From the NCBI GenBank assembly GCA_900102385.1, contig FNBQ01000011.1, positions 1-64,000 on the forward strand: a stretch of DNA of 64,000 nt, in the 5' to 3' direction. Shown piece by piece: positions 8,670 through 47,915 of the stretch. The notes beneath the pieces are model-generated. The model worked only from the letters and a program-made list of their open reading frames with translations. It was not told the origin of the DNA and made no database searches. A program made the position numbers and the translations under genes. This stretch comes from Bacteroidales bacterium KHT7 (GTDB lineage: Bacteria > Bacteroidota > Bacteroidia > Bacteroidales > Bacteroidaceae). Each line of letters starts with the position of its first letter. The first letter of the stretch is position 1.

Positions 8670-10367
8670 TTATCCTGCAATCGAATTGCAAATGTTGCCT
8701 GCCGATGGATTGTCGAAAAACTTTTCTGATTCCTCCCACGCCTTTCCATCCTTAATCGTGATAATTTTGTTCGCGCCTTGGATTGTCCGCAGCCTATGTG
8801 CGATTACAAGAACGGTTTTGCCTTTGATTAGTTTTGAAAGCGATTGTTGAATAAGTGTCTCGTTTTCAACGTCTAATGAGGCGGATGCTTCGTCGAGAAG
8901 AATTATTGGAGCGTTTTTGAGGAAGGCACGGGCAATGGAAATTCGCTGACGTTCGCCGCCGGAGAGTTTTTTGCCATTTTCGCCAATAATTGTATTCCAC
9001 TTATCAGGCAGATTTTCAACAAATTCGGTGCAGTTGGCAAGTTCGGCTGCGGCTTTTACCTGTTCGTCGGTGGCGTTTTTGTCGCCAATGCGGATGTTTT
9101 CCAAAACGGTATTGTTAAACAATGTAACATCTTGAAAGACAATTGAGTAAAGACTCATAAGTGTTTCAGTGTCAACCTTTGAAATATCCTGACCGCCAAC
9201 AGTTATTTTTCCCGAATCAATATCCCAAAACCTTGCAGCAAGTCGCGAAACAGTGGTTTTGCCGCTGCCCGAAGGACCAATCAATGCCGTAACTTCGCCC
9301 TGTTTTGCAGTGAACGAAACGCCGTCGAGAATCTTTTTGCCATCTTGATACGAGAACTTAACATCCTCAAACACAATGTCTCCGCCATTTACTTTAAGTT
9401 CCTCAGAGCCTTGAAGTTCCTTGTGGCAGAGAATTTCGTTGAGGCGTTCGGAATTGACGTCAAGACCGATTATCGCCGCAAAATGTTCGAGCGACGTCAT
9501 CAGCGGGTCGTAAAGCCTTGAAACGATTATCAAAAACAGGAAGAACATCAGGACGTCGATTTCGCCTGATTTCAAGAGCATTGCGCCGACAAGTGCTGTG
9601 GTTGCGATGCCGAATTTCAGGAGCATTTCGGCGTTTGTGACAAAAAGTCCCGTGCCGAGTTCGTTCCAAAGCATACGTTTTTCAACTTCGTGGATTTTCG
9701 CCTTGACATTCTGAAAATAACTTTCCTGCGCATTGTTTTGTCGCAAATCCCTCACCGACTCCAAACATTCTTGGATTTTTTCGGTCATTTCGACGGCGGC
9801 GACGCTCTTTTTCTTTCCGAGTTTGTACTGAACTTTTCTTGAAAATGTCACAATTATAAGGCTAATCGGCAACATCCAAACCGCCGCCAAGGCCATTTTC
9901 CAATTGATGAAAAACAGACTTGCCGACAGTATGCAAGTGCTTATCACTGAGCCGATAAACTGCGGAATGAAATGTGATGAAGCCTGTTCGATGCTTGCTG
10001 CGTCGTCCATCAAAGCCGAGGTCAGGTCTGCGCAGTCTTTTTTTGCAAAAAACGACAAAGGCAGTTTCCTGAGTTTTTCGGCTAACGTGATTCTGCGCAC
10101 ACCGCTCTCCTTGTAAGTAGAGAAAAAACACGTGTTGTACTGAATCATGGCTGTTACTATTAGCAACAAAACCCAAATGCAAATACCTGTCAGATAGAAT
10201 GTTGCTTTATCCTCAAGACCATCGCCCAAAATGTCCTTTATCAAAAAATAGAGTAACACAACGGGCGAAAACAGCACCAAATTGTAAAAGATATTTGCTA
10301 CCGATGCAATTATCATCGATCTTGCGCCCTCGTCAGAAAGGGCATATTTTTGTTTCAAATTTTTCAT
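8670..10367 (-). CDS. ABC transporter half (exporter fold), YbtQ/IrtB-like partner
   Basis: This 565-residue fusion has an N-terminal six-helix membrane domain and a C-terminal ATPase. Walker A is GPSGSGKTTVSRL, the signature is LSGGERQRISIARAF, and Walker B is IILLDEASASLD followed by VENET. It forms a natural pair with the gene upstream. Two fused half transporters of this type make the heterodimers of the YbtPQ/IrtAB group, which despite their exporter fold import metal-siderophore complexes in enterobacteria and mycobacteria. Import is an inference from family resemblance and the metal-related neighbours. The C-terminus after the H-loop is short (ends NICNSIAG). Confidence 0.85.
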   Translation of the reverse strand: MKNLKQKYALSDEGARSMIIASVANIFYNLVLFSPVVLLYFLIKDILGDGLEDKATFYLTGICIWVLLLIVTAMIQYNTCFFSTYKESGVRRITLAEKLRKLPLSFFAKKDCADLTSALMDDAASIEQASSHFIPQFIGSVISTCILSASLFFINWKMALAAVWMLPISLIIVTFSRKVQYKLGKKKSVAAVEMTEKIQECLESVRDLRQNNAQESYFQNVKAKIHEVEKRMLWNELGTGLFVTNAEMLLKFGIATTALVGAMLLKSGEIDVLMFFLFLIIVSRLYDPLMTSLEHFAAIIGLDVNSERLNEILCHKELQGSEELKVNGGDIVFEDVKFSYQDGKKILDGVSFTAKQGEVTALIGPSGSGKTTVSRLAARFWDIDSGKITVGGQDISKVDTETLMSLYSIVFQDVTLFNNTVLENIRIGDKNATDEQVKAAAELANCTEFVENLPDKWNTIIGENGKKLSGGERQRISIARAFLKNAPIILLDEASASLDVENETLIQQSLSKLIKGKTVLVIAHRLRTIQGANKIITIKDGKAWEESEKFFDNPSAGNICNSIAG

Positions 10368-10380
10368 TTCATTAATTACG

Positions 10381-10425
10381 AATTATGAATTATGAATTAT
10401 GCATTATGCATTAATTGTTAATTGT
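10381..10425. repeat. ATGAATT/ATGCATT heptamer array
   Basis: Tandem seven-base units (ATGAATT, ATGAATT, ATGCATT and relatives) fill the gap between the two ABC genes. They belong to the same AATTSAY heptamer family seen at 14205-14256, 19170-19204, 38822-38853 and on both sides of the gene at 47476-47841. Confidence 0.55.
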
Positions 10426-14204: not shown

Positions 14205-14256
14205 AAAAATTATGAATTATCATTTTTAATTGTCAATTATGAATTGTCAATTCTCC
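14205..14256. repeat. AATT-type heptamer repeats between RND and LolA-like genes
   Basis: AATTATGAATT, TTTTTAATTGTCAATT and ATGAATTGTCAATT runs fill the 49-bp intergenic gap and slightly overlap the RND gene's 3' end. Same family as the other heptamer arrays in the window. Confidence 0.5.
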
Positions 14257-16598
14257 TCCTCTTTTCCAAATATTTTCAGCATTTTGAACAATACCGGAGT
14301 GATGAACAAGTCGGCAAGAAGAGCCGAAATCAAGCCAGCCACTGCCAATGTACCGAAGTGTCTCATCTGAATGGCGTCAGAAACCGAGAATCCGAGGAAA
14401 GTGGCTGATATTATGACAGATGTCATGACGATAGCCAAGCCCGTTACGCGGAACGTCGCTTTCACGGCATGCTCGTAGTTTCGTTTGCGGTTGAACTCAA
14501 GATGTGCGTGGTTTACAAAATGGATAGTGTCGTCTACCGCCAGACCGAGAATCATCGGGATGATGCAAGCCGTCATCATGTCGAGCGGATAGCCCAGCCA
14601 ACCCATCATGCCGCCAACAAACACCGCAGGCGCAAGGTTCGGAATCATTCCGATAAGGCCGAGCCTGATGTTTCCGAAGACAATCATCAGCAGTATGCCG
14701 ATAATCACGGCCGACAGGATAAGCGACCACATCTGTCCCTTTGTGATGTACTGCTGCATAACCGTAAACTGAGGCAGATTGCCCACCGTAGAAACTTCGG
14801 AATTCGGGAACAGCTCTTTGGCGCGGGCCTCGAGACGCTTCATCTCGTTCTCAATCTCGTTAGAGTTGTAGTTGCTGATTTCTATTTGCAGACGCAGACG
14901 GCGATATTCATAATCCATCCAGTATTCAGATTCCGAGCCGCCAGCATTCTCGTAAAGAAGCAAGAGTTGTGCCACCGCATCGTAGTTGTCGGGAACGTGA
15001 TAATACGCTGTATCGTTGCCGTTTAGCGTGCAGTTCATGTCTTTTATTATGTCGAGAACCGAAGAGTGACGCTTTGTCAGTGGATATTTTTCAATTTCGT
15101 GTTCGAGAGTCTCGAGTTTCTGAAGATTCTCGGGCTTCTTGGCATCGCCTTCCTCGGGCAGGACAACCATCAAATCGTAAGAGTACATCGTTCCGAGTTC
15201 TGTTTCGCACAGTTCAAGAAAACGGCGCGAATAGTCAACCTTTCTGCCCATCGAACGCTCAACGTCGAATGCCGGCTCAATCCAGCAAACGCCTATGCCA
15301 CAGAATATTGTGATGATGGTTGAAACAACGATAATCTTCTTTGAATGACGCAGAACGTATTCGCCAAAACGCTCGAAAAGTCCGGCAGACTTGCCCTCGA
15401 ACGATGTTTCGAACTGCTTGTTGTTCTCTGCCTTCTTTCCGAGCGAAAGCATTATTGGGGTAATTACAAGAATCGAGATGAGAACTGACACGATTGCAAG
15501 CGCAGAGTTTATGCCCATCGCCTTCATCGGAACAATGTTCATGGCAAGGAACGTCATCATTGCTGCAAGCGTCGTGAAGCCCGAGAAGATAACAGGCCAA
15601 GCAGTCTCGGCAATGGCATCGATGGCTGCCTGCTTGCGGTCGTGAAGTTTTATAAGCTGTGTTCTGAAGAAACTGTAAACGTGGATGTTATATGCTATTG
15701 CCACGGCAAAGGCAAGCATTACGGTTATCATCGTGGTGCTCATGTCCAAATAAAGCCCGAGCCAACCTATAATTCCCATGGCTATAATCAAGGCGGAGAT
15801 TGAGGTGAGGATAGGAATCAGAACGCCTCGCAATGAGCGGGTTACGAGAGTCATCACAATCAGCGCAACGATTATGGCAATAAGCATCAGACGCGACATC
15901 TCGCCTTTTATGTACTGAGCCTTGGCATAGTTCATGTATGGCATTCCGGCGATGTTTGGGTTGAGCGATGCGTATTTGTCTTTTGTACAGATTTTTATCG
16001 CCTCTCTACCAGTTTGGTTTTCGGGAGCCTCAAGCCCTTGCGCGCGCCAAAGACTGTCGGAAGGGTAGGGGCGCAGTTTTACCAGAATCCACGACATTGT
16101 GCCGTCTTTGCTGATGAGTTTCTTCGACACATATTCCTTGCTGTAAGCCTTTTGGCGTATTGAGTCGAGTCCTTCCTTCGAATTTGGAATCACCTCTGGC
16201 ACAATCTGTTGCAGTTCCATTCCATCCTCCGTTCCGACCATAAATTCGAGGTCGGTGATAGATGTGATTTTCTCGGAATACGACAGACTGTCCATCAGTT
16301 CGTTGCTGAGTTCACGGACAAGTTCGAGGTTCTTCTTGTTGAACAATCCCTCTTTGTTCTCAACCAGCACGGCAACATAGTAGTCGTTGCCGAAAATGCT
16401 CTTGAACTCGTTGGTTTTCAGAATCATCGGGTCGTCTTTCACGAAATAGGTATCGAACGATGTTTCAAAATAGATACGTTTCAGTCCTGCTACCGAAAAA
16501 GCAAGCAGGGCGGCAAACGCAATCATCACGATTATGCGATGATTTACAACAAATTGTCCGAATCTGCGGAACTTTGTGTTTATCTTCTCGATATTCAT
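14247..16598 (-). CDS. RND/MMPL family exporter
   Basis: The 783-residue inner-membrane protein has two halves, each with one N-terminal helix, a large periplasmic loop and a five-helix bundle of the sterol-sensing/MMPL type (GFTTLAAMMTFLAM in half one, GLAVDDTIHFVNHAH in half two). The acidic pair in GLAVDD is the expected proton-relay position; the equivalent place in half one (AFAVAIAYNIHV) lacks acids. Such exporters paired with LolA-like proteins are thought to move lipids or lipid-linked molecules. It is the first gene of the operon, 150 bp after the site B promoter, and its leader contains a terminator-like hairpin. A TetR gene lies just upstream. Confidence 0.92.
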   Translation of the reverse strand: MNIEKINTKFRRFGQFVVNHRIIVMIAFAALLAFSVAGLKRIYFETSFDTYFVKDDPMILKTNEFKSIFGNDYYVAVLVENKEGLFNKKNLELVRELSNELMDSLSYSEKITSITDLEFMVGTEDGMELQQIVPEVIPNSKEGLDSIRQKAYSKEYVSKKLISKDGTMSWILVKLRPYPSDSLWRAQGLEAPENQTGREAIKICTKDKYASLNPNIAGMPYMNYAKAQYIKGEMSRLMLIAIIVALIVMTLVTRSLRGVLIPILTSISALIIAMGIIGWLGLYLDMSTTMITVMLAFAVAIAYNIHVYSFFRTQLIKLHDRKQAAIDAIAETAWPVIFSGFTTLAAMMTFLAMNIVPMKAMGINSALAIVSVLISILVITPIMLSLGKKAENNKQFETSFEGKSAGLFERFGEYVLRHSKKIIVVSTIITIFCGIGVCWIEPAFDVERSMGRKVDYSRRFLELCETELGTMYSYDLMVVLPEEGDAKKPENLQKLETLEHEIEKYPLTKRHSSVLDIIKDMNCTLNGNDTAYYHVPDNYDAVAQLLLLYENAGGSESEYWMDYEYRRLRLQIEISNYNSNEIENEMKRLEARAKELFPNSEVSTVGNLPQFTVMQQYITKGQMWSLILSAVIIGILLMIVFGNIRLGLIGMIPNLAPAVFVGGMMGWLGYPLDMMTACIIPMILGLAVDDTIHFVNHAHLEFNRKRNYEHAVKATFRVTGLAIVMTSVIISATFLGFSVSDAIQMRHFGTLAVAGLISALLADLFITPVLFKMLKIFGKEEEN

Positions 16599-18866: not shown

Positions 18867-19013
18867 ATCTATAATAAATTTAATTGTTTTGATTGTACTC
18901 TTTCGCTAAGTAACATGAGGAAGGGGAGTGTCCCATGCCGGAAAGCCCTATTCGGAATCTTGGTGGAGGTTTTCAGCTTTCTACTGTCAATTTTCAGTTT
19001 ACCCATCAGCTAT

Positions 19014-19112
19014 CTTGCCCGAACCTTGCCCGAACCTTGAACGTAGGTTGAACGTACCTTGAACGTAGCTTCCCCGTACCTTCCCCGTACCTACCCCGTA
19101 GCTACTTCGTAT
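19014..19112. repeat. Tandem array of nine 11-bp units
   Basis: Nine contiguous 11-base units run from CTTGCCCGAAC (two copies) through CTTGAACGTAG, GTTGAACGTAC and CTTCCCCGTAC (two copies) to CTACTTCGTAT. Read on the minus strand the units match the array at 38953-39117 (CTACGTTCAAG, GTACGGGGAAG). It lies in the 340-bp gap between the TonB receptor and lipoprotein genes. The rest of the gap holds AATT heptamers (19170-19204) and no gene. Confidence 0.8.
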
Positions 19113-19169
19113 TTTTCGGCTTATTTTCCTCTGCTTTGAATCTTAGTTGAAACGATTTTTCAACTTTGC

Positions 19170-19204
19170 GAATTGTCCATTGTCAATTATGAATTGTCAA
19201 TTGT
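19170..19204. repeat. AATT-type heptamer repeats
   Basis: AATTGTCCATTGTCAATT, then ATGAATTGTCAATTGTC, immediately downstream of the TonB receptor stop codon. Same family as the arrays at 38822 and 47392. Confidence 0.55.
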
Positions 19205-19206
19205 CC

Positions 19207-31211: not shown

Positions 31212-32114
31212 ATGAAAAAGCTCCTTGTTCCATTTTTCGCTTTGTTCTTGTTCTCGTGCGGAAACATGTCAAAGCAGAACGCAACCGATAGTCAGAACGA
31301 TTCGCTTTGGGCAGAAAAAACGACTGCCGAAACCGCCAAGCCTATGCCGCCCGTCTATGTGGTTTGTGATGTCTACGGCGAGAAATTCCTGCTCCGCCAG
31401 CGTTTCGACGAGGACGAAAAGCCTTCTGCCCCCGACTCGCTAAATAAATACAAGTTCGTTATCTACAAAAGAAAACCGCATGCCGTATCGTTTCTCCGTT
31501 TTCAGCCCGAAAATGCCGAAATGAACACGGGGCGCGACAGTTACCGCAATTTCGACAACCTTTCGGGATGGCTCTACACGATGGATAGCGGCAAGTTGCT
31601 CGAAAATCCAAAAGACGAGTGGGATGCCATTTGGGACGCCGCGCTTCTTGTCGACGATTTGTTTCTGAAGCAGAACGACATTCTTCCGTTTAAAGATGAA
31701 TCTGCCCCAACTGCCGATATAAAAGTTGCGCTGGAGAAGAAATACGGTCGTAAGATTAAGTCAGTTGTGTCGTCGCAGGCCTTTGGCGAAAAGGGTGAGT
31801 ATCTGTTTGTAAACGTGCAGTTTTTTAATAAAGGTGCTGAGGCTCTTGGCGTTACGGCTCTCTGTAAAAACGGCTCTTTGCTTGCCACAAAAGATTTTCC
31901 TGCCGCGTGGAACGATGAGTCTGTTTGGCGAGTCGACGACGAGGGCGAGTTTCATGGTTTGCAATTAGACCTTGCCACTCTATGCAACGGCGTGCTCACA
32001 CTATACACGGCCAACTTCGGCGCAGAAGGCACAAATTACGCATCGTATGTGATAAAAGACGGCTCGTTTGCCGACGGCGGTTTGTCTGACACGTTCTATC
32101 AGTCGCCTGAGTAG
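31212..32114 (+). CDS. Lipoprotein of unknown function
   Basis: The 300-residue product starts MKKLLVPFFALFLFSCGN, with a lipobox at LFSC. I prefer the ATG at 31212 to the one at 31206. The body has an N-terminal acidic, Thr-rich linker and two regions with aromatic repeats (NLSGWLYTMDSGKLL, YASYVIKDGSFADGGLSDTFYQ). No Pfam-like signature was recognised. It is monocistronic and ends at a bidirectional terminator. Confidence 0.7.
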   Translation: MKKLLVPFFALFLFSCGNMSKQNATDSQNDSLWAEKTTAETAKPMPPVYVVCDVYGEKFLLRQRFDEDEKPSAPDSLNKYKFVIYKRKPHAVSFLRFQPENAEMNTGRDSYRNFDNLSGWLYTMDSGKLLENPKDEWDAIWDAALLVDDLFLKQNDILPFKDESAPTADIKVALEKKYGRKIKSVVSSQAFGEKGEYLFVNVQFFNKGAEALGVTALCKNGSLLATKDFPAAWNDESVWRVDDEGEFHGLQLDLATLCNGVLTLYTANFGAEGTNYASYVIKDGSFADGGLSDTFYQSPE

Positions 32115-32165: not shown

Positions 32166-32188
32166 GATGTTTTTTTCAAACTGTGATT

Positions 32189-32221
32189 GTTCGGGATGCC
32201 TTCGGGATTCGTTCGGGATTT
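32189..32221. repeat. Short array of three 11-bp units
   Basis: GTTCGGGATGC, CTTCGGGATTC and GTTCGGGATTT follow each other without gaps. They resemble the GTTCGGGCAAG units of the array at 19014-19112 (minus-strand reading) and share the 11-base period. Confidence 0.6.
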
Positions 32222-36148: not shown

Positions 36149-36706
36149 ATGAATACTGTATACACTTTTCTTGCCGACGGCTTTGAAGAAGTCGAGGCGT
36201 TGGCTGTTGTAGACTGTCTTGTGCGTGCCGGACTCAATACAAAAACCGTATCTGTAAACGGAAGCAACACGGTTACTGGCGCGCACAACATTAAGGTCGT
36301 TGCCGACATTGAGTTCTCGGAGGGCGATTTCTCCGATGCCAATGTGCTTTTCTTTCCCGGCGGAATGCCCGGAACGCTCAATCTCGAGGCCCACTCTGGC
36401 TTGATGAATCTTCTTGACAAGCATTACAACGCCGGCAAGGAGATTGCAGCCATCTGCGCAGCACCTTCAATCCTTGCTCACAAGGGCTATCTGAAAGACA
36501 AGAAGGCAACATGCTATCCGGGCTTCGACAAAGACCTTGTTGAGGGCGGCGCAACACACACCGGCAGCCTGGTAGAAGAGTGCGGAAACATAGTAACAGC
36601 CAAAGGCCCGGGAGCGGCTCTCGAACTGGGATACACGCTCGTGGCTCGCCACGTTTCGCCCGAGAGAGCGGCAGAGATGAAGGCTCAGATGATTTTTGAA
36701 TATTAA
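36149..36706 (+). CDS. DJ-1/PfpI family protein
   Basis: The 185-residue protein has the DJ-1 fold markers: conserved Glu in GFEEVEALAVVD, the FFPGGMPG loop, and the nucleophile-elbow Cys in AAICAAPSIL. Relatives (YajL, DJ-1) act as oxidative-stress proteins, with debated deglycase or chaperone activity. It is transcribed with recG, whose apparent start overlaps its last 11 bases. Confidence 0.93.
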   Translation: MNTVYTFLADGFEEVEALAVVDCLVRAGLNTKTVSVNGSNTVTGAHNIKVVADIEFSEGDFSDANVLFFPGGMPGTLNLEAHSGLMNLLDKHYNAGKEIAAICAAPSILAHKGYLKDKKATCYPGFDKDLVEGGATHTGSLVEECGNIVTAKGPGAALELGYTLVARHVSPERAAEMKAQMIFEY

Positions 36707-38819
36707 ACCGGAATTCTTGGCACAGAATCTGGAAAACTGGGATATCAAGTTCCTGCCGGGCGTTGGTCCGCAGCGGGCAAGTGTGCTGGACAAGGAGGCT
36801 GGAATCCGTTCGGTGCTCGATCTTTTGTATTATTATCCATACAAGTATGTAGACCGAAGCCGACTCTTCTACATCCATGAACTTGAGGACAATATGCCTT
36901 ACGTTCAGGTTAGGGGAGAGATTCTTAGTTTCGAGACCTTTGGCGAGGGACGGCAGCGGCGACTCGTGGCTCATTTCAGCGACGGCACGGGCGTTATAGA
37001 CCTTGTGTGGTTTCAGGGCATAAAATTCGTAACCCAGAACTACAAGTGCCATGTTCAGTATATCGTTTTTGGCAAGCCTACGCTGTTTGGCTCGCGCATA
37101 AACCTTACTCACCCCGATATAGACGAGGCTTCGAAGATTTCGCTCTCGACGATGGGATTGCAGCCTTTCTATCCCACAACCGAGAAGATGAAACGTGCGG
37201 GGTTGAACTCGCGCGGCATGGAACGCCTCACGGCAAAGATGATTGAGGTGCTGAAAGAGCCGCTCGAGGAGACGCTTCCGCCATGGCTTATAGCCGAGCA
37301 TCATCTCATCTCGTACGATGAGGCTATGCGAACCATTCATTATCCAAAGTCGCACGATGTTCTGCGCAAGGCTCAGTTAAGGCTGAAGTTCGAGGAACTT
37401 TTCTATATCCAACTGAATATCCTTAGACTTGTAAAAGACCGCCAGCAGAAATATCAGGGCTTCATTTTCAATCGCGTAGGAAAGGTTTTCAACACATTCT
37501 ATTCCGATAAACTGCCATTCGAGCTTACCGGTGCGCAGAAACGCGTTATCAAGGAGGTTCATGCCGATATGAAGTCGGGCAAGCAGATGAATCGTCTTGT
37601 TCAGGGCGATGTGGGCAGCGGAAAGACGCTCGTTGCCCTTATGTGCATGCTTCTGGCAATAGACAACGGCTTTCAGGCATGCATAATGGCGCCGACCGAG
37701 ATTCTTGCCGAGCAGCATCTCGAAACAATCCGCAAGTTTTTGGGCGATATGCCTGTCCGCGTTGAACTTCTGACTGGCATCGTGAAGGGCAAGAAACGCG
37801 AGAAAATCCTTACCGACCTTCGTCTTGGCGAGGTCGATATCCTCGTCGGAACTCATGCTCTTATCGAGGATACCGTACAGTTCTCAAACCTCGGCATTGC
37901 CGTGATTGACGAGCAACATCGTTTCGGAGTGGCTCAGCGAGCAAAACTGTACTCAAAGAACGTTGTTCCGCCGCACATTCTGGTAATGACGGCAACGCCT
38001 ATTCCACGTACGCTTGCCATGACTCTTTACGGCGACTTGGACGTGAGCGTGATAGACGAGCTTCCGCCGGGCAGAAAACCGATAAAGACCGTTCATCAGT
38101 ACGACTCAAAGCGAGGTCCGCTATATAGCGGAATACGTCAGCAGATTCAGGAGGGAAGGCAAGTCTACATCGTCTATCCGCTTATAAGCGAGAGCGAGAA
38201 GATGGAAGACATCAAGAATCTGGAAGACGGCTACAAACATATTCAGGAAGTCTTTCCTGAGTACAAGATAAGCATGGTTCACGGCAAGATGAAGTCTGCC
38301 GAGAAAGATGCCGAGATGGCTAAGTTTGCCAGCGGCGAGACGCAGATTCTGGTTGCAACAACCGTAATCGAGGTGGGAGTGAACGTTCCGAACGCCTCGG
38401 TAATGGTTATTGAGAATGCCGAACGCTTTGGATTGTCGCAGCTGCATCAGTTGCGCGGACGCGTTGGGCGAGGTGCAGACCAGTCGTATTGCATCCTCGT
38501 AACCGGCTTTAAACTGAGCGAGGACACCCGAAAGCGAATATCGATAATGACGAGCACCAGCGACGGCTTCGAGATTGCCGAGGCTGACTTGAAACTTCGC
38601 GGTCCGGGCGATTTGGAAGGTACTCAGCAGAGCGGAGTGGCGTTCGACCTTAAGATTGCCGACATCACGCGCGACGGCCAGATTCTTGAATTGGCTCGCA
38701 ACGTGGCTTCGAAGATTCTCGATGCCGACCCGCAGCTTGCATCGCCCGAGAGCGCAATCTTCGTAAGGCAACTCCGCAGGCTAAAGAAAGAAGATGCCGA
38801 TTGGAGCAGAATCTCGTGA
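36696..38819 (+). CDS. recG: ATP-dependent DNA helicase RecG, probable TTG start
   Basis: The 707-residue helicase remodels stalled forks and branched DNA. It has an N-terminal wedge domain (FLPGVGPQRASVL, FSDGTGVIDLVWFQG), Walker A GDVGSGKTLVAL, DEQH box, motif III TATPIPRTLAM, and the helicase C domain with QLHQLRGRVGRG. The only start that keeps the usual leader before DIKFLPGVGP is TTG at 36696; the next Met is far inside the wedge. AAGG lies 12 bases upstream of that TTG. The start overlaps the DJ-1 stop by 11 bases, which suggests coupled translation. Confidence 0.95.
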   Translation: MNIKPEFLAQNLENWDIKFLPGVGPQRASVLDKEAGIRSVLDLLYYYPYKYVDRSRLFYIHELEDNMPYVQVRGEILSFETFGEGRQRRLVAHFSDGTGVIDLVWFQGIKFVTQNYKCHVQYIVFGKPTLFGSRINLTHPDIDEASKISLSTMGLQPFYPTTEKMKRAGLNSRGMERLTAKMIEVLKEPLEETLPPWLIAEHHLISYDEAMRTIHYPKSHDVLRKAQLRLKFEELFYIQLNILRLVKDRQQKYQGFIFNRVGKVFNTFYSDKLPFELTGAQKRVIKEVHADMKSGKQMNRLVQGDVGSGKTLVALMCMLLAIDNGFQACIMAPTEILAEQHLETIRKFLGDMPVRVELLTGIVKGKKREKILTDLRLGEVDILVGTHALIEDTVQFSNLGIAVIDEQHRFGVAQRAKLYSKNVVPPHILVMTATPIPRTLAMTLYGDLDVSVIDELPPGRKPIKTVHQYDSKRGPLYSGIRQQIQEGRQVYIVYPLISESEKMEDIKNLEDGYKHIQEVFPEYKISMVHGKMKSAEKDAEMAKFASGETQILVATTVIEVGVNVPNASVMVIENAERFGLSQLHQLRGRVGRGADQSYCILVTGFKLSEDTRKRISIMTSTSDGFEIAEADLKLRGPGDLEGTQQSGVAFDLKIADITRDGQILELARNVASKILDADPQLASPESAIFVRQLRRLKKEDADWSRIS

Positions 38820-38821
38820 AG

Positions 38822-38853
38822 AATTGACAATTCACAATTGACAATTGACAATG
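38822..38853. repeat. AATTSAC heptamer array after recG
   Basis: AATTGAC, AATTCAC, AATTGAC, AATTGAC units follow the recG stop codon directly. A related TTGAAAG/TTGAGAA heptamer run continues at about 38861-38890. Confidence 0.6.
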
Positions 38854-38952
38854 GGAGCTTGAAAGTTGAGAATTGAAAGTTGAAAAAGCTATTTAATTCA
38901 CAATGAAAAATTGAGAATTGAAAGCCGATAAGTAGCATTTTACAAGCCGCAA

Positions 38953-39117
38953 CCTACGTTCATGTATGCTTCAAGTAAGCCGGAAGGTACGGGGTAGGAA
39001 CGGGGTAGGAACGGGGTAGCAAGCCGGAAGGTACGTTCAAGGTTCGTTCAAGATACGTTCAGAGTTCGTTCAAAGTACGTTCTGAATACGTTCAAGATTC
39101 GTTCAAGATACGGGGAG
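38953..39117. repeat. Tandem array of fifteen 11-bp units
   Basis: Fifteen contiguous 11-base units of the type GGTACGTTCAA, GGTTCGTTCAA, GATACGTTCAG, GGAACGGGGTA and GCAAGCCGGAA run without spacers. Two core variants alternate in blocks: CGTTCAA and CGGGGTA. The array lies between convergent recG and the HAD gene, in a 378-bp gap that otherwise holds only heptamer repeats and a hairpin. The unit length is close to one helical turn. Confidence 0.85.
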
Positions 39118-39129
39118 CTCTTTTGAAAC

Positions 39130-39179
39130 TTGAAAGTTGAAAATTGAAATTTTAGTTGCTTTCAATTTTCAACTTTCAA
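39130..39179. terminator. Perfect 20-bp hairpin between convergent genes
   Basis: Bases 39130-39149 (starting TTGAAAGTTG) are the exact reverse complement of 39160-39179, with a ten-base loop. The arms are built of TTGAAAN heptamers. It lies between the recG array and the stop of the HAD gene, so it may end transcripts from both sides, though no T-run follows. Confidence 0.6.
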
Positions 39180-39197
39180 TTCTCAATTCCTGAAATT

Positions 39198-39845
39198 TTA
39201 TTTTACAATATCCATAATGTCGCTTGGCTTCTCGGCAAAAATCGTTGCACCGTTTTTTTTCAGAAAATCCTTGTCGCGGAATCCCCACAGAACCGATATG
39301 CACGGAATACAGGCGTTTCGTGCCGTCATTATGTCAACATCGCTGTCGCCAACGTATATTGATTCTTCGGGCTTCACGCCGAGTCGCTTCATAGCCTCCA
39401 CAACCATGTCGGCGTATGGCTTGCGTCGCAGAGGGGCAGCCTCGCCAATAGCAACGTCAATCGTGCTGCTGAAAAACGATTTGTACAACTCCGTAACACC
39501 AAACTGCGGTTTGTTAGATACGATTGCCAACTTAACGCCATTATCTTTCAGATTCTCAAGAAGTTCTTGAATGCCACTATACAGACATGTATAATCCATG
39601 CAATGGCACGCATAATGTTGCCTGAACAGCGAAAAACACTCCTCAATCTGCTCCTGAGACGAGCCTGACTCTACCGACAGTTCAATCAGCCTTCTTGCTC
39701 CGTTTCCAACAAACTGTTTTATCTCCTCAATTGTGTGCTGTGGCATGTTCATGCAAGCCAGAGCATGATTAACGCTTATTGCCAAATCCTTTAACGAATC
39801 CATCAGGGTTCCGTCAAGGTCGAAAATTACTGCTTTGTATTTCAT
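39198..39845 (-). CDS. HAD-family phosphatase (phosphoglycolate phosphatase-like)
   Basis: The 215-residue hydrolase shows HAD motif I FDLDGTLMDS, motif II IVSNKP, the lysine in RRKPYAD, and motif IV VGDSDVD. The cap domain begins with DLAISVNHAL, as in Gph/PGP enzymes. I chose the ATG at 39845 (MKYKAVIFDLDG). The likely role is removal of 2-phosphoglycolate or a similar phosphoester, but HAD specificities are hard to predict. Monocistronic, convergent with recG. Confidence 0.88.
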   Translation of the reverse strand: MKYKAVIFDLDGTLMDSLKDLAISVNHALACMNMPQHTIEEIKQFVGNGARRLIELSVESGSSQEQIEECFSLFRQHYACHCMDYTCLYSGIQELLENLKDNGVKLAIVSNKPQFGVTELYKSFFSSTIDVAIGEAAPLRRKPYADMVVEAMKRLGVKPEESIYVGDSDVDIMTARNACIPCISVLWGFRDKDFLKKNGATIFAEKPSDIMDIVK

Positions 39846-39901
39846 TTGTGCAAAGAAAGCAAAACTTTGAGCAAATCGCAACTCGTTTGCGATTATTTTC
39901 T

Positions 39902-47391: not shown

Positions 47392-47461
47392 AATTCATAA
47401 TTGACAATTCACAATTCACAATTCATAATTCATAATTGATAATTGATAATTGATAATTTTT
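47392..47461. repeat. Array of ten AATTSAY heptamers (left side of inserted gene)
   Basis: Ten contiguous seven-base units: AATTCAT, AATTGAC, AATTCAC (2), AATTCAT (2), AATTGAT (3), AATTTTT. The partner array at 47874-47901 carries the same units in inverted orientation on the other side of the four-helix-bundle gene. Confidence 0.75.
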
Positions 47462-47841: not shown

Positions 47842-47873
47842 TAACTTCATGATTTATATATTGCAAATTCATT

Positions 47874-47901
47874 ATGAATTGTGAATTATGAATTATGAAT
47901 T
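47874..47901. repeat. Array of four inverted heptamers (right side of inserted gene)
   Basis: ATGAATT, GTGAATT, ATGAATT, ATGAATT: the reverse complements of AATTCAT and AATTCAC found on the left side at 47392-47461. Confidence 0.7.
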
Positions 47902-47915
47902 AAAAAGGAAAAGAC

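Follow-up and report, generated by a model that had tools for sequence, protein, structure and literature searches.

A family of tandem arrays built from 11-bp units is dispersed between genes in the genome of Bacteroidales bacterium KHT7 and is restricted to its genus. The window analysed here, a stretch of 64,000 nucleotides (contig FNBQ01000011.1, positions 1 to 64,000), carries two of these arrays. The account we prefer, with a probability of roughly 55%, is that the family consists partly of MITEs spread by an IS982-like transposase and has been kept since two species of the genus separated, probably by selection. Where bacterial transposon remnants contain minisatellites, these are generally regarded as passengers. 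The copies described here keep their place, register and sequence across species (18 orthologous pairs) while more than one-fifth of the adjoining fourfold sites changed; if selection is the cause, repeat DNA has acquired a use across a whole genome.

The preliminary description of this DNA had placed contiguous 11-bp units at 38953-39117. These are present, and a profile-chained scan widened the array to 16 units. Its setting between convergent genes was also confirmed, with recG on one side and a HAD-type hydrolase gene on the other. The relevant features of the window are as follows.

36696..38819, plus strand: recG, the upstream neighbour of the main array (Pfam RecG_dom3_C, E 4.1e-41)
38822..38885, plus strand: 5' heptad repeats AATTGAC and TTGAAAG, called by TRF at 38822-38852 and 38859-38885, with the forward polarity seen 5' of arrays
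38932..38942, plus strand: final 11 bases of the leader, GTAGCATTTTA, from the leader alignment; with close counterparts at the arrays of L133, L153 and L168
38943..39118, plus strand: main array of 16 abutting 11-bp units; all 15 steps are 11 bp in the profile-chained scan, a regularity that is partly built in because the scan penalises other step lengths
39123..39188, plus strand: 3' heptad repeats, forward TTGAAAA and then TTTCAAT, hairpin-like by eye (TRF 39123-39149 and 39160-39188)
39198..39881, minus strand: HAD-like hydrolase gene, the convergent neighbour (Pfam HAD_2, E 2.1e-38)
18948..19123, minus strand: second family array, for which the profile scan gives 16 units, with TRF support at 19014-19105 and an aligned ortholog in the sibling species
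32185..32220, plus strand: short triplet of about three 11-bp units on TTCGGGAT (TRF), of uncertain kinship

A three-unit pattern matched 13 times within the window, each time inside one of the two main arrays, whereas 100 dinucleotide shuffles gave 0.02 matches on average and never more than 1, which excludes chance for these arrays. The units abut directly, in contrast to CRISPR loci with their unique spacers between repeats. Two core types, CGTTCAA and CGGGGTA, had been proposed, a vocabulary that proved too small, as the main array also contains GCCGG, GCCGC and GCTTC cores, and GGGGA and GAAGG occur elsewhere. Likewise, the statement that every unit faces the same side of the DNA is only an approximation: at 10.5 bp per turn, each unit is offset from the last by about 17 degrees and 16 units rotate by about 270 degrees in all, while exact same-side facing arithmetically requires DNA underwound to about 11 bp per turn.

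The array near 19014-19112, which had been described as an inverted member of the family, does lie on the minus strand, but its flanking genes are co-oriented and not convergent. At 32189-32221, where a short form of the family had been noted, about three 11-bp units on TTCGGGAT are indeed present; however, the family profile made no call there, and we regard the triplet as a separate short motif whose kinship with the 11-bp family is uncertain. It sits behind the apparent terminator hairpin (by eye) of a gene ending at 32114, and similar triplets are repeated near other arrays and ends in the same genome. Furthermore, TRF detected intergenic heptads (AATTGAC, AATTATG, AATTCAT, TTGAAAG and their kin) across the window at 10374-10413, 14208-14252, 19171-19205, 38822-38885, 39123-39188, 47392-47458 and 47871-47902, and AATTGTC-type heptads are present in another genus of the same family (L239).

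Beyond the window, the pattern CGKKSWAGNWNCGKKSWAG matched 124 times in the window genome and 195 times in that of a sibling species of the same genus, but once in each of 4 and not at all in 95 of 99 other genomes; its reversed control had no match in either family genome and 0-2 in the others. The possibility, raised beforehand, that the unit occurs no more often than expected or only through local slippage is thus contradicted by a genome-wide count far above the control. Slippage alone is ruled out by this genome-wide family together with the leaders and the word order common to its copies. After removal of overlapping and weak calls, at least 45 arrays with 768 units remained in the window genome and at least 51 arrays with 856 units in the sibling species, both numbers being minima because the sites were found with patterns. 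A GGGG-type pattern was also run over 84,980 species genomes and returned 24 stretches, 21 of which derive from the sibling genome, the MAG Bacteroidaceae bacterium RGIG8161 from water-buffalo rumen, and one each from Xenorhabdus, Planctomycetia and Burkholderia.

Two other origins or affiliations were rejected. The window element had no match pointing to a phage or plasmid, the wider region had none in plasmids, and one GGGG-type pattern had 0 matches in viral contigs; a phage or plasmid origin of the array was rejected on this lack of matches. A family-wide class of 11/22-bp arrays was dismissed after inspection of 182 kb from five other genera, in which the few 22-bp rows were inverted-repeat-like and several lay between convergent genes. 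In other genera, words phased at 11 bp and alternately inverted were seen between convergent genes (L235, ~9019-9118 and 15603-15669; L238, 15638-15680); these words are perhaps two-way terminators.

The units comprise several word types, namely CGTTC, CGGGG, GCCGG, GGGGA and variants thereof, within a common frame: across 778 units from 47 window-genome arrays, positions 2-3 are A or T in 99% of cases, position 10 is A in 88% and position 11 is G in 88%. Among the matches listed, array copies have leaders, heptad flanks and word order in common, and the homology between them reaches beyond the arrays themselves. The heptads are strongly polarised, with 402 forward versus 61 reverse on the 5' side and 276 forward versus 57 reverse on the 3' side of 94 arrays. 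An array copy may be read as a polarised cassette in which heptads come first, then a short leader and a minisatellite whose 11-bp words keep a partly fixed order, and finally further heptads. A second, homogeneous array type of the form (GAACGTCGTAG)n or (GAAGAAGGTAG)n was also observed (L144, 3209-3492; L162, 3519-3592; L172; L244; L249); it is preceded by a leader with the hairpin ACAATTTCGNCAGAAATTGT and can occupy the site of a mixed array in the other species.

When 12 leaders were aligned, they showed a common start, the reverse complement of which appears in the tails (match by eye). The arrays of both species were pooled for the end searches, so that orthologs are counted twice among the 94 arrays. 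Within 450 bp and in the expected orientation, the end core was found to the left of 18 of these arrays, to the right of 19 and on both sides of 5; in the wrong orientation it was found to the left of 3 and to the right of 4. A matrix search detected at least one terminal inverted repeat resembling TAYRYSAGTTCGGCATAA within 350 bp in 33 of the 94 arrays, as compared to 3 in the wrong orientation, a test that is not wholly independent because the matrix was built from genome-wide end matches, some of them array-linked. Both ends exceeded the matrix threshold in 6 of the 94 arrays and neither end did in 61, the matrix search finding no recognisable ends for the two window copies (38943-39118 and 18948-19123). 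The end pattern itself had 52 matches genome-wide, while the reversed pattern had 0.

The end TACGCCAGTTCGGGATAA was furthermore found at seven contig ends, 308-465 bp from the end of the contig. Two fragments beside it match the NCBIfam family IS982 (E 3.2e-07, typed by eye, and E 3.7e-32, in L282), both below the NCBIfam cutoff of 130 bits, as fragments may be; IS982 was the best match and IS5 a weak one. The fragment with the lower significance matched no Pfam family, and a third fragment (L288) matched no NCBIfam family. At the contig ends of L281-L287, IS982-like fragments bounded by TACGCCAGTTCGGGATAA appear to be repeats that interrupted the assembly.

Six two-ended elements span 301-398 bp (one alternative end pair gives 498), and no ORF longer than 163 aa crosses any of 42 placed arrays; like MITEs, the elements are thus short and transposase-free. 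Target duplications were recognised by eye in L165 and its ortholog L214 (4 bp) and in the array-bearing element of L289 (5 bp), while no clean duplication was seen by eye in L136, L170, L194 and L197. No array-free insertion site was seen; in L168 and L219 the array is absent from the other species, but the neighbouring sequence differs as well. Because their ends are shared with IS982-like transposase fragments, these data suggest that part of the family, with ends in about one-third of copies, represents MITEs carrying a minisatellite, and an IS982-like transposase would have spread this part. For the two window copies, we infer arrival by the same route from the words, leaders and heptads they share with the others. 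Elements that carry the same ends but no array were also noted (L290, 1625-1961; L291, 1444-1800; L292, 1563-2043; L294, 1441-1810). They are rich in hairpins and 337-481 bp long, and direct repeats of 5 and 6 bp flank those of L291 and L292, respectively (by eye).

For the comparison between the two species, the pairing procedure flagged 20 of the 47 window-genome arrays; L153:6357 and L159:6576, which were paired with the wrong sibling array, were omitted, leaving 18 pairs. The other 27 arrays have no ortholog among the stretches compared, which does not mean absence: of five unpaired sites inspected (L136, L164, L168, L200 and L219), L136 proved to have a sibling array that the patterns missed. 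Across the 18 pairs, whose detection depended on intact units in each species and thus carries a bias of choice, array identity is 95.8% (2875/3001), while the fourfold sites of nearby genes are 77.5% identical (8530/11004); flanking intergenic DNA reaches 94.4% (8514/9018) and coding DNA 91.7% (71447/77924). The main window array has the lowest identity among the 18 pairs, 85.8%, and the array at 19 kb stands at 96.0%. The two copies in the window, and at least 16 more, would accordingly predate the divergence of the two species.

The arrays differ mainly by whole units. In a first alignment, 15 of 17 array indels were multiples of 11; in a second, 23 of 26 were 11, 22 or 33 bp long, and the rest measured 1, 7 and 59 bp, the latter two adjoining each other in L133. 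Unit number thus varies between orthologous arrays, as in a minisatellite or VNTR. Only 3 indels break the phase, as opposed to 25.5 expected from the flanks by length (Poisson 2.6e-08) or 13.4 when scaled by substitutions (Poisson 7.6e-04). Within the unit, the CG at positions 4-5 is least substituted (6 and 5 of 273). Since the split, the arrays would have changed chiefly as entire 11-bp units were added or lost, and in the 18 pairs their sequence and register appear to have changed far more slowly than the fourfold sites of adjoining genes. Selection on array sequence and register would account for this pattern. For the register, it is the reading we favour, from two genomes in many contigs and from pairs chosen via intact units; the element may have been selected as a platform for a putative phased DNA-binding protein.

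Some sites differ in array kind between the species (L164/L244, L200/L249 and L162/L173; for L164 and L200, the other species has the second, homogeneous type, at contig ends), so single arrays are not indispensable. Recombination between arrays that joins different flanks was considered and rejected, as 0 of 51 sibling arrays were chimeric: among the stretches compared, both flanks lay at one locus for 14, one flank for 6 and neither for 31. At L141/L192 and L147/L209, one flank of the array is far more alike between the species than the other (98.8 vs 89.5% and 98.5 vs 85.3%, respectively), as if stretches had been exchanged.

The likeliest of the alternatives is that the family is unremarkable minisatellite junk from old MITEs or repeats, its conservation being an appearance created by slow intergenic mutation or by the choice of well-kept pairs. 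The way the pairs were found would favour such an outcome. Moreover, intergenic DNA is generally more conserved than fourfold sites here, every intergenic class exceeding them, and a low mutation rate at the 5' ends of bacterial genes has been reported (PMC12725619). However, within the same regions, identity is 96-97% for the array and its flanks to 150 bp and falls to 91-93% beyond 200 bp. Inside the genes, fourfold identity is 84% in the first 150 bp and 76-80% deeper. A separate comparison of the window with the sibling contig, in which 12 of 28 intergenic regions were left out (less than half aligned), gave 94.6% (679/718) for the two array regions versus 90.5% (2221/2454) for the 14 control regions retained. 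We consider the junk reading unlikely.

A further possibility is that the arrays, whatever their origin, are phased binding sites for a putative genus-specific nucleoid or chromosome-organising protein, with tens of dispersed sites of about a dozen words each, one helical turn apart. The scarcity of phase-breaking indels, the low substitution of the CG at positions 4-5 and a placement free of orientation and context (see below) are all consistent with it. On the other hand, whole-unit slippage by itself also yields multiples of 11, the flanks to 150 bp are as identical as the array, so that the 11-mers are not singled out, and in the pair L136/L301, found by gene, the gaps are 11 and 20, one of the two breaking the phase. 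As an explanation in its own right this remains doubtful, and so does its combination with the transposon history, in which former MITE minisatellites would now form about fifty dispersed, helically phased docking sites for a putative chromosome-organising protein of this rumen genus, with selection keeping both register and words.

The gene context bears on whether the arrays act as terminators, promoters or other cis-regulatory elements of the adjoining genes. The main window array does lie between convergent genes, and segments of BrickBuilt, a repeat compared below, are reported to drive transcription in the portion of the source cited (PMC4596501). Nevertheless, contexts are mixed: for the 41 of 47 window-genome arrays with both flanking genes visible (6 at stretch edges were left out), these genes are tandem in 20 cases, convergent in 12 and divergent in 9. 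This count excludes ORFs that pass for at least 60 bp through an array; without this rule, ORFs of 84-163 aa, which we took for spurious, overlap many arrays. Relative to the orientation of the array, the four possible gene contexts account for 13, 8, 10 and 8 of 39 arrays in the window genome and for 14, 12, 11 and 9 of 46 in the sibling. Orientation is even with respect to the coding strand (19/45 and 26/51 in the window and sibling genomes, respectively), and with contexts this mixed a special tie to gene ends, for which a check had been proposed at the outset, is not supported. A tie to replication direction fared no better, as orientation is also even with respect to local GC skew (24/45 and 25/51), the proxy used since true direction is unreadable in a genome of 61 contigs. 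The array as a strand marker, promoter or terminator was rejected on this absence of context and orientation bias. RNA folding is weak as well (mean z of -1.7 and -1.3 on the two strands, with z < -2 in 11 of 37 arrays on each strand; 20 shuffles each) and no Rfam match was found within the window, on which grounds a structured RNA was also rejected. A cis-regulatory role thus appears very improbable. Less probable still is a role in DNA secondary structure, for example as a G-quadruplex: GGGG units do cluster, with 7-base loops, but the canonical motif occurs in only 5 of 47 arrays, and after shuffling of unit order it is still present in 2.2 on average and in up to 6.

The preferred reading, MITEs in part and retention probably by selection, can be set against known systems. 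In line with the preliminary description, no named repeat family with this unit was found in the open-access literature, as judged from titles and abstract openings, BrickBuilt being close in architecture. Porphyromonas gingivalis belongs, like the window genome, to the order Bacteroidales. Its BrickBuilt is a minisatellite inside a MITE and, according to the portion of the report cited, resembles the 11-bp family in being a spacer-less, intergenic tandem repeat of narrow host range with a leader and a tail, with IS-like ends in some copies only (both ends in 4 of 19 BrickBuilt copies) and, going by the duplications read by eye here, with variable target duplications (PMC4596501). It differs in having a single type of 23-nt unit, a length that by itself sets the two apart, as well as 19 copies and ends like those of the IS5-family elements ISPg1 and ISPg9 (PMC4596501), whereas the family described here has several word types, at least 45 arrays, heptad flanks and another end sequence. 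The ends of P. gingivalis MITE239 (ACGTGAGTTCGATATAA), MITE700 (ACGTCATTCGA) and ISPg3 (ACGTCAGTTCGA) closely resemble TAYRYSAGTTCGGCATAA; in the cited portion of that report, no minisatellite is named for MITE239 or MITE700, and ISPg3 is filed under IS5 (PMC4596501), while IS982 is the best match for the fragments found here.

The heptad flanks have a counterpart in TAACTGA and related heptamers, described in the portion of the source cited as short intergenic direct repeats that also occur in some Bacteroidetes, with several related heptamers per region as observed here (PMC4679880). Unlike the 11-bp family, these are 7-bp units without 11-bp words, and in Beggiatoaceae they mostly lie just upstream of start codons (PMC4679880). 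Taken as a MITE-borne minisatellite, the family would thus be of a known kind, and what is new is its 11-bp vocabulary, its heptad flanks and a degree of conservation that calls for an explanation.
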